Assembly (NCBI GenBank): GCA_944377405.1
Contig: CALWES010000001.1
Location: 1-64,000 of the forward strand
DNA from: an uncultured Lachnospiraceae bacterium
Lineage (GTDB): Bacteria; Bacillota; Clostridia; Lachnospirales; Lachnospiraceae
DNA length: 64,000 nt
Direction: 5' to 3'
Made by a program: the position numbers and the translations under genes. The notes beneath the pieces are model-generated. The model was not told the origin of the DNA and made no database searches. It saw nothing but the letters and a program-made list of their open reading frames with translations. Of this stretch, positions 21,540-23,736 are shown one piece after another. Each line of letters opens with the position of its first letter. The first letter of the stretch is position 1.

Positions 21540-21582
21540 TTGACAAGCATGTTGGGATTTTAGTATGATATTACATGCTTGT
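21540..21582 (+). promoter_or_regulatory. tRNA-Leu promoter with inverted repeat around the -10
   Basis: TTGACA (21540-21545), 18 bp, TATGAT (21564-21569). A perfect 10-bp inverted repeat, ACAAGCATGT (21543-21552) and ACATGCTTGT (21573-21582), encloses the -10 region; it may be an operator or may also form a hairpin that ends upp transcription. Confidence 0.7.
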
Positions 21583-21584
21583 TT

Positions 21585-21664
21585 GCCGCTGTGGCGGAAT
21601 TGGCAGACGCACTTGACTCAAAATCAAGCGGGAAACCATGCCGGTTCGAGTCCGGCCAGCGGCA
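21585..21664 (+). tRNA. tRNA-Leu (anticodon CAA)
   Basis: Acceptor GCCGCTG (21585-21591) pairs with CAGCGGC (21657-21663), discriminator A. The anticodon stem CTTGA/TCAAG encloses the loop CTCAAAA, anticodon CAA, reading UUG. A T-arm with TTCGAGT and a short variable arm are present. CCA is not encoded. No terminator separates it from the PHP gene 25 bp downstream, so it is probably released from a tRNA-mRNA transcript. Confidence 0.95.
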
Positions 21665-21689
21665 CGCATCTCTGAAAGGAGGCACTCCC

Positions 21690-22310
21690 ATGCTTTTGGA
21701 TATGCATATGCACGAGAAGACCTATTCTCCGGACAGCGTCCTGTCCCTGGAGGAGATGGTGACCATTGCCAGAGAAAAGGGCCTTGACGGGATCTGTATC
21801 ACGGATCACGACAGCATGGGCCTTAAGGGCTATGCAGAGGAGTTCAGCAGGAAGACGGGATTTCCCATTTTCGTGGGGATCGAGTTCTTCTCCCTTCAGG
21901 GGGATATCGTGGCCTTCGGCATCGATGAATACCCGGATCACCGGGTGGATGCCCAGACCTTTATCAATTATGTCAGAGCCAGGGACGGCATCACCATCAG
22001 CGCCCATCCCTTCCGGAACAATCAGAGGGGACTGAAGGAGCACCTTCTGGAGGTGACCGGACTGGATGCGGTGGAGGTGCTGAACGGAAGTACCCTTCCC
22101 GACGCCACCTCTCTGGCAGCCCAGTATACCGCAAAGCTCGGTCTTGGAGCCGTGGGAGCCAGTGACTGCCATGTGCCGAGGACCGTGGGGATCTGCGCCA
22201 CCTGGTTTCCGGGTGAGGTGCGCTCCATGCAGGAGCTGATCCGGGCTGTCCGGGCAAAGGAATCGGCCCCGGCCTATTACAGCGGTGCCTATCATATTTA
22301 CGAATTATAG
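21690..22310 (+). CDS. PHP-domain metal-dependent phosphoesterase
   Basis: Start ATG at 21690 after AAAGGAGG; the longer frame runs through the tRNA. 206 residues. PHP metal ligands are visible: HMH at residues 6-8, ITDHDSMGLKGY, GIEFF, ISAHPFR, and SDCHVPRTVG. It resembles the single-domain PHP phosphoesterases of the YciV/TrpH group, which act on 3',5'-nucleotide phosphates or oligoribonucleotides; substrate here not determined. Confidence 0.87.
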   Translation: MLLDMHMHEKTYSPDSVLSLEEMVTIAREKGLDGICITDHDSMGLKGYAEEFSRKTGFPIFVGIEFFSLQGDIVAFGIDEYPDHRVDAQTFINYVRARDGITISAHPFRNNQRGLKEHLLEVTGLDAVEVLNGSTLPDATSLAAQYTAKLGLGAVGASDCHVPRTVGICATWFPGEVRSMQELIRAVRAKESAPAYYSGAYHIYEL

Positions 22311-22329
22311 GATATTACAATCAAATAAA

Positions 22330-22403
22330 ACTTACCGCCGGGTAAAGCGTTGGATTTTGTATCGTCAGGCCGTTAGCAGATACAAAGGTTCAGCGCTTTT
22401 TTT
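22330..22403 (+). ncRNA. Candidate guanidine-IV (mepA-type) riboswitch with terminator
   Basis: P1 is TTAC/GTAA (22332-22335 with 22342-22345), loop CGCCGG. P2 is TTGTATC/GATACAA (22357-22363 with 22379-22385), 15-base loop containing CAGGCCG, which could pair with the P1 loop. AAGCGTTG (22345-22352) can instead pair with CAGCGCTT (22391-22398), followed by seven T: an intrinsic terminator whose left arm overlaps P1. The leader ends 20 bp before a MATE gene. A guanidine-responsive class called the mepA motif is known upstream of MATE genes in Clostridia and works by transcription termination. The class assignment is from memory of its layout and context. Confidence 0.6.
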
Positions 22404-22422
22404 GTCGGAAGGGGAGGAGACT

Positions 22423-23736
22423 ATGGATCGGAAAACAACACTTCTGGAATTTGGAAAATACGTAAGCTTAAGCGTCATCGCCATGCTGGCCGTGTCCTGC
22501 TATATCCTGGCAGACACCTTCTTTGTGTCGAAAAGCCTGGGGACCCGGGGCCTTGCTGCCCTGAACCTGGCCATTCCCGCCTATAACTTCATCCACGGCA
22601 CGGGGCTGATGCTGGGCATGGGTGGGGCCACCCGCTATGCGGTCTGCAAAAGCAGAGGAGAGGACCGGGAGGGGGATCTGATCTTTACGGACAGCTTCCG
22701 CCTTTCCCTGGCGGCATCCCTTTTCTTTGTGATCATGGGGCTTCTGGCTTCAGAGGCTCTCACGGGGCTTCTGGGGGCCGACGAAGAGATCTTTGACATG
22801 ACCCGTACCTACCTTAAGGTGATGCTGCTTTTTGCCCCGGCCTTTATCCTCAACGACCTCCTTGTGTGCTTTGTGAGGAACGACGGGGACCCCAGACTTG
22901 CCATGATCGCCACGGCGGCAGGCAGCATCGCCAATATCTTCCTGGATTATTTCTTCATGTTCCCCCTGGGCATGGGGATCTTCGGCGCCGTCTTTGCCAC
23001 GGGCCTTTCTCCGGTGATCGGCATCCTGATCCTGATCCCCCACTGGATGAAAAAAACAAGGGGCTTCCACCTGGTGAAGGCCTCTCTTTCCGGGAAAAGG
23101 ACAGGGATCATCTTCTCCCTGGGCTTTCCCTCCCTTCTGGGACAGTTTGCCACGGGTATCGTCATTATCGTCTTTAACGCCATCATCCTGGGCCTTACGG
23201 GTAATACAGGGGTGGCTGCCTACGGGGTGATCGCCAACATCTCCCTTGTGGTGGTGGGCATCTATACGGGTATGGCCCAGGGCATCCAGCCCCTGGTGAG
23301 CCGGGAATACGGAAGGGGGAACCGCAGGAAGGAGACCGCCTTCCTCCGCTATGATCTCTGGGCCATGGTGCTCATCTCCCTGGCCCTTTATGCCCTCCTC
23401 TTTTTCTTTGCGGATCCCATTACGGCGGTCTTTAACAGCGAGGGGGATGAGGCCCTTCAGAAGATTGCCTCCGAGGGCCTGAAAATATATTTTACTTCTA
23501 TGGTGTTTGTAGGATATAATATTATCATATCCATGTATTTCACTTCTGTGGAAAGGGCGCTGCCCGCCCACATCATTTCCCTGCTGAGGGGATTTGTCCT
23601 CATTGTGCCCATGGCCTTCCTGCTGTCCGCGCTTCTGGGGATGTGGGGTGTATGGCTGACCTTCCCGGCCACGGAGCTTTTGGTCTTTGTCACGGGCATC
23701 TGTCTTTACGGGCGCTTTCAGCGGACAAGGAGGTAA
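22423..23736 (+). CDS. MATE-family efflux transporter
   Basis: ATG at 22423 follows GGGGAGGAG; the longer frame covers the riboswitch and is discarded. 437 residues with about twelve hydrophobic helices in two halves. Family features: ADTFFVSKSLGTRGLAALNLAIPAY in helix 1-2, GMGGATRYAVCKSRGE, and RNDGDPRLAMIATAAGSIANIFLDYFF in the first half. MATE proteins export cationic compounds by Na+ or H+ exchange. With the upstream leader, guanidine or guanidine-like cations are the likeliest substrate. Confidence 0.9.
   Translation: MDRKTTLLEFGKYVSLSVIAMLAVSCYILADTFFVSKSLGTRGLAALNLAIPAYNFIHGTGLMLGMGGATRYAVCKSRGEDREGDLIFTDSFRLSLAASLFFVIMGLLASEALTGLLGADEEIFDMTRTYLKVMLLFAPAFILNDLLVCFVRNDGDPRLAMIATAAGSIANIFLDYFFMFPLGMGIFGAVFATGLSPVIGILILIPHWMKKTRGFHLVKASLSGKRTGIIFSLGFPSLLGQFATGIVIIVFNAIILGLTGNTGVAAYGVIANISLVVVGIYTGMAQGIQPLVSREYGRGNRRKETAFLRYDLWAMVLISLALYALLFFFADPITAVFNSEGDEALQKIASEGLKIYFTSMVFVGYNIIISMYFTSVERALPAHIISLLRGFVLIVPMAFLLSALLGMWGVWLTFPATELLVFVTGICLYGRFQRTRR

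Follow-up and report, generated by a model that had tools for sequence, protein, structure and literature searches.

The window analyzed here is a single stretch of DNA of 64,000 nucleotides (64 kb). Within it, a structured leader on the forward strand occupies the gap between a gene for a PHP-domain protein, which ends at 22310, and a gene for a MATE efflux transporter (22423-23736, forward strand; PF01554, E 1.5e-39; TIGR00797 above cut-off). A first-pass annotation had described two hairpins and a terminator at 22330-22403 with a MATE gene immediately downstream; the domain matches bear out the gene, and the positions are right to within 2 bases of the leader delimited here, which comprises a putative aptamer and a terminator and spans 22329-22405. 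A stretch of 19 bases separates the T tract that closes the leader from the MATE gene. A cytidylate kinase-like gene (PF13189; 23748-24353, forward strand) follows the MATE gene at a distance of 11 bases, which suggests that the two probably share a transcript. A clear sigma-70 promoter was sought just upstream of the leader on the forward strand and none was found; a TACAAT at 22316-22321 would put the start of transcription near 22328. Further upstream, a tRNA-Leu (CAA) at 21585-21665 is overlapped by a long open reading frame call (21579-22310), and the PHP protein probably starts later than this call, near 21699.

Architecture of the leader

The leader folds into two adjacent hairpins. The first, P1 (22332-22345, forward strand), pairs TTACC (22332-22336) with GGTAA (22341-22345) around a GCCG tetraloop (22337-22340), as indicated by the sequence, the fold and covariation in the class. 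At 5 bp it is a short form, and a comparison of P1 lengths gives 6-9 bp in most relatives. The second is an 18-bp terminator hairpin (22346-22397, forward strand), with 14 of the 17 pairs of helix 3 covarying in the class. In the predicted fold it consists of a lower stem (22346-22355 with 22388-22397), an upper part, P2 (22356-22363 with 22379-22386), a single bulged G at 22387 and an unpaired loop of 15 bases (22364-22378; GTCAGGCCGTTAGCA). A tract of seven T (22397-22403, forward strand) completes the intrinsic terminator. The left arm of the terminator had been said to overlap the first hairpin, and A22344 and A22345 of P1 can indeed lengthen the terminator by pairing with the T tract; the arms therefore overlap or abut. 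The fold has an energy of -25.6 kcal/mol versus a mean of -17.6 for shuffled sequences (z -2.87), 2 of 200 shuffles being equally good. A simple terminator scan missed the hairpin because its 15-base loop exceeds the limit of 8 set in that scan.

The loops of the two hairpins are complementary. GCC (22337-22339) in the P1 loop faces GGC (22368-22370) within the conserved AGGCC core (22367-22371) of loop 2, all on the forward strand, in pseudoknot columns 9-11 with 58-60, and the sequence permits the pairs G22337-C22370, C22338-G22369 and C22339-G22368. Of 68 aligned matches of the class, 63 have AGGYC followed by N3-G. The window has AGGCC-GTTA-G (N4-G) in place of the usual AGGYC-NNN-G, and owing to this one extra base a G stands at +7 (22376) instead of +6; an identical arrangement occurs in the L068 genome before sugE.

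Homology, covariation and the silence of Rfam

Homology is the decisive evidence and comes from covariance models built with the window left out. Leaders of SMR (PF00893) genes were sought across the phylum, which gave one, L061, whose loops are spaced as published, and a narrow pattern scan of genome contigs returned seven matches, of which only L068 was judged real. This genome, 'Candidatus Pseudoscilispira falkowii', carries two tandem sugE-like genes, each with a leader of its own (2446-2530 and 2914-2994). Model R1, made from these three leaders of sugE-type genes, has a single match in the 64-kb window, at 22333-22405 (41.5 bits, E 1e-8). Across 398 genomes of the phylum R1 identified 17 sites in 16 genomes; one, in L093, falls within a coding gene and was dropped as false. 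Model R2, made from 16 relatives, scores 51.5 bits at the window site (E 3e-9). An initial pattern search, which required 1-3 bases at a point where no base intervenes in the window, gave two matches, no better than the control, and was discarded.

In the 17-sequence alignment, annotated with the pseudoknot, 95% of cells are paired and 21 of 27 pairs have changed on both sides. The covariation score is 0.663, compared with 0.275 for shuffles and at most 0.12 for a slid structure; because the sequences were aligned by fitting to the model, the counts are biased in its favor, but the margin over the controls is wide. The structure of the model did not include the kissing pairs. All three are present in each of the 17 sequences, the variable first pair being G-C in 9, A-U in 5 and G-U in 3. 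Their register is that of the published Clostridium botulinum pairs C30-G71 and A29-U72 (PMC11611296). The A29G/U72C double mutant of that RNA is reported to restore the kissing loop (PMC11611296), and the G-C found at the second pair in the window equals this combination. An early six-position pairing of ACCGCC with GGCCGU was dropped, as relatives covary only at RCC with GGY.

Rfam 15, run at gathering score and at E values up to 10, gave no meaningful match at the window site; the weak matches obtained (bglG-cis-reg, Ref64 and miRNAs) are at chance level, far below their gathering scores. The same library recognized none of ten other loci of the class (L061, L068 and eight more, several directly before sugE), so its silence is no evidence against class membership, and we infer that Rfam 15 appears to have no model for the guanidine-IV class. 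The first-pass annotation had proposed a search with the Rfam model of this class. That check returned nothing, here or on the ten loci, and in its place the models built for this work match the site at the E values given above.

The match of the leader to the guanidine-IV (mepA) class, as first proposed, is thus backed by both models and by covariation, kissing register, terminator design and gene associations, all of which agree. As judged from its sequence, the window element is an additional member of this known class, which was described in 2020, with a compact P1.

Relation to guanidine-IV and Gd4v riboswitches

Like the published guanidine-IV riboswitches (mepA motif, GGAM-1; PMC7736828, PMC11611296), the element has two hairpins that kiss in the same register, a 3' hairpin that is the terminator, a conserved loop-2 core and MATE, SugE and PnuC genes as the targets of its relatives. 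It differs from them in a P1 of only 5 bp that lies flush against the terminator, in the extra loop-2 base before the conserved G, which guanidine-IV RNAs have at +6 counted from the G of the GU/GY step (G72 in Lactococcus lactis, G77 in C. botulinum), and in a variable kissing pair that is G-C rather than A-U, G-C being common in the family. The short P1 and the extra base are two local departures, either of which could weaken binding. Guanidine-I, -II and -III riboswitches have different folds and share with the element the presumed ligand and the export genes; Rfam gave no match to any of the three within the window.

A 5-bp P1 and a 15-base loop are unusual, and the terminator, at -25.6 kcal/mol, is strong, as might be expected of a class member whose switch was damaged by these changes and which now acts mainly as a constitutive attenuator. 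We consider this very unlikely, since the conserved core is intact and a compact P1 beside the terminator is seen repeatedly in the family (L091, L094, L125, L127, L130 and L145), in some cases before sugE. It is also improbable that the compact form, with its short P1 flush against the terminator and its extra loop-2 base, defines a sub-type that is linked to a single branch of MATE pumps and differs in affinity or in the guanidino compound it binds. The hairpin also lies 36 bases past the stop codon of the PHP gene and carries a T tract, as a terminator of that upstream gene would; however, an unrelated terminator whose P1 and loop match the class by chance is scarcely credible given E values of 1e-8 and 3e-9 from models that do not contain the window sequence, and given that the closest MATE relative, which belongs to another genus (L130), is preceded by the same RNA.

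A closer competitor is Gd4v, a guanidine-IV variant that responds to a ligand other than guanidine, is frequent among gut bacteria and may precede MATE genes (PMC9788692); an element of this kind would use the same switch mechanism for a different signal. Its overall architecture is shared by the window element and MATE genes are among its targets (PMC9788692), a hairpin-bearing form occurs in the genus of the window (L149), and the extra loop-2 base sits where Gd4v-like forms carry an extra hairpin. In contrast, in the Gd4v core set, whose members stand before transaminase genes, the terminator hairpin always bears this extra hairpin (feature D2; PMC9788692), whereas the 15 bases of loop 2 in the window are unpaired in the fold. 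Where loop 2 ends, the window element also retains a G ahead of NAG; feature D1 of Gd4v is not G, and if D1 corresponds to the G of GNAG, this position is a G (22376) in the window. The only other leader with N4-G, and hence of equal loop-2 length, is that of L068, which precedes sugE, a gene never linked to Gd4v. Because the window element has no extra hairpin and its N4-G counterpart precedes sugE, we assign it to guanidine-IV proper and give the Gd4v variant a low probability.

The Gd4v-like leader of L149 (1501-1594, minus strand) bears the extra loop-2 hairpin AGCAGC-AGTAAC-GCTGT and precedes a gene for a multi-pass membrane protein, YitT-like by eye. Members of the class at L142:617-720 and L143:1615-1722 likewise carry a long additional hairpin within loop 2. 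The gene behind the L142 leader encodes a MATE protein of the guanidine-IV group, which blurs the border between guanidine-IV and Gd4v here.

Proposed switch, its pump and the downstream genes of the class

We propose, with a probability of about 0.9, that the element belongs to the guanidine-IV class and acts as a transcriptional ON switch. The class assignment follows from the structure, homology, covariation and gene association shown in this analysis; guanidine as ligand, the ON direction and the substrate of the pump are predicted by analogy with other members of the class. Without ligand, the full 18-bp terminator hairpin would form and the polymerase would stop at the seven U. In this terminated state the lower stem would begin at 22346, directly after the end of P1 at 22345, leaving no linker between the hairpins; with only P2 formed, a ten-base linker (22346-22355) would enable the loops to kiss. 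As P1 is flush with the lower stem and the kiss needs a linker, a ligand that stabilizes the kiss should block closure of the lower stem. Guanidine would bind where GCC of the P1 loop kisses GGC of the upper terminator hairpin and would keep P1 beside the partly formed hairpin P2, preventing the lower stem from zipping and allowing read-through into the MATE gene, the product of which would most likely export guanidinium. The same switch model has been published for the class (PMC11611296, PMC12186494), and the linker argument has been made previously (PMC9788692).

An otherwise generic multidrug MATE pump thereby gains a likely substrate, guanidinium. Neither an SMR gene (PF00893) nor a guanidine-I riboswitch was found in the host genome, and the pump may for this reason be the guanidine outlet of the host. 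The window MATE protein groups with that of L130 (66% identity) in a branch with support 100/99 that lies apart from nearly all other MATE proteins of the genus; 27 of its 28 rows are riboswitch-linked, a share that is not a fair sample, as the linked rows were included because of their leader and the remaining ones because they resemble the window MATE. The cytidylate kinase-like gene is absent beside riboswitch-linked MATE genes in ten neighborhoods. In L134, a guanidine-IV leader precedes a relative that is 58% identical.

R2 detects the RNA in 102 of the 329 genomes sampled from the family of the window (about a third). Within the genus of the window, 5 of 25 genomes have a match, and two of these matches were judged variant or doubtful (L149 with the extra hairpin, L150 weak). 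The class is frequent in the family yet invisible to the Rfam scan, so routine annotation will miss such riboswitches. Among 68 aligned matches, the last of which (a second match in L098, on the other strand) is false, the downstream genes encode MATE (30), SMR (10), PNPOx/Nim-like (10) and PnuC (9) proteins and, more rarely, radical SAM (2) and DUF1989 (UAAP-like; 1) proteins, with a cytidylate kinase-like gene further on in one case and no assignment in five. Published guanidine-IV targets include SugE, MATE and PnuC (PMC7736828), and the class was first named the mepA motif after its MATE genes (PMC12186494). A SugE-type gene follows the RNA in three other genomes of the genus (L125, L145 and L147).

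PNPOx genes stand behind guanidine-IV leaders in L102, L108, L121, L085, L131, L133, L136 and others; the L102 protein is near the NimABCDEF nitroimidazole reductase family of NCBIfam, below the cut-off. Rarer genes directly after the RNA encode radical SAM (L083, L084), PPDK_N (L080) and UAAP-like DUF1989 (L089) proteins, and DUF1989 relates to urea/guanidine carboxylase accessory proteins.
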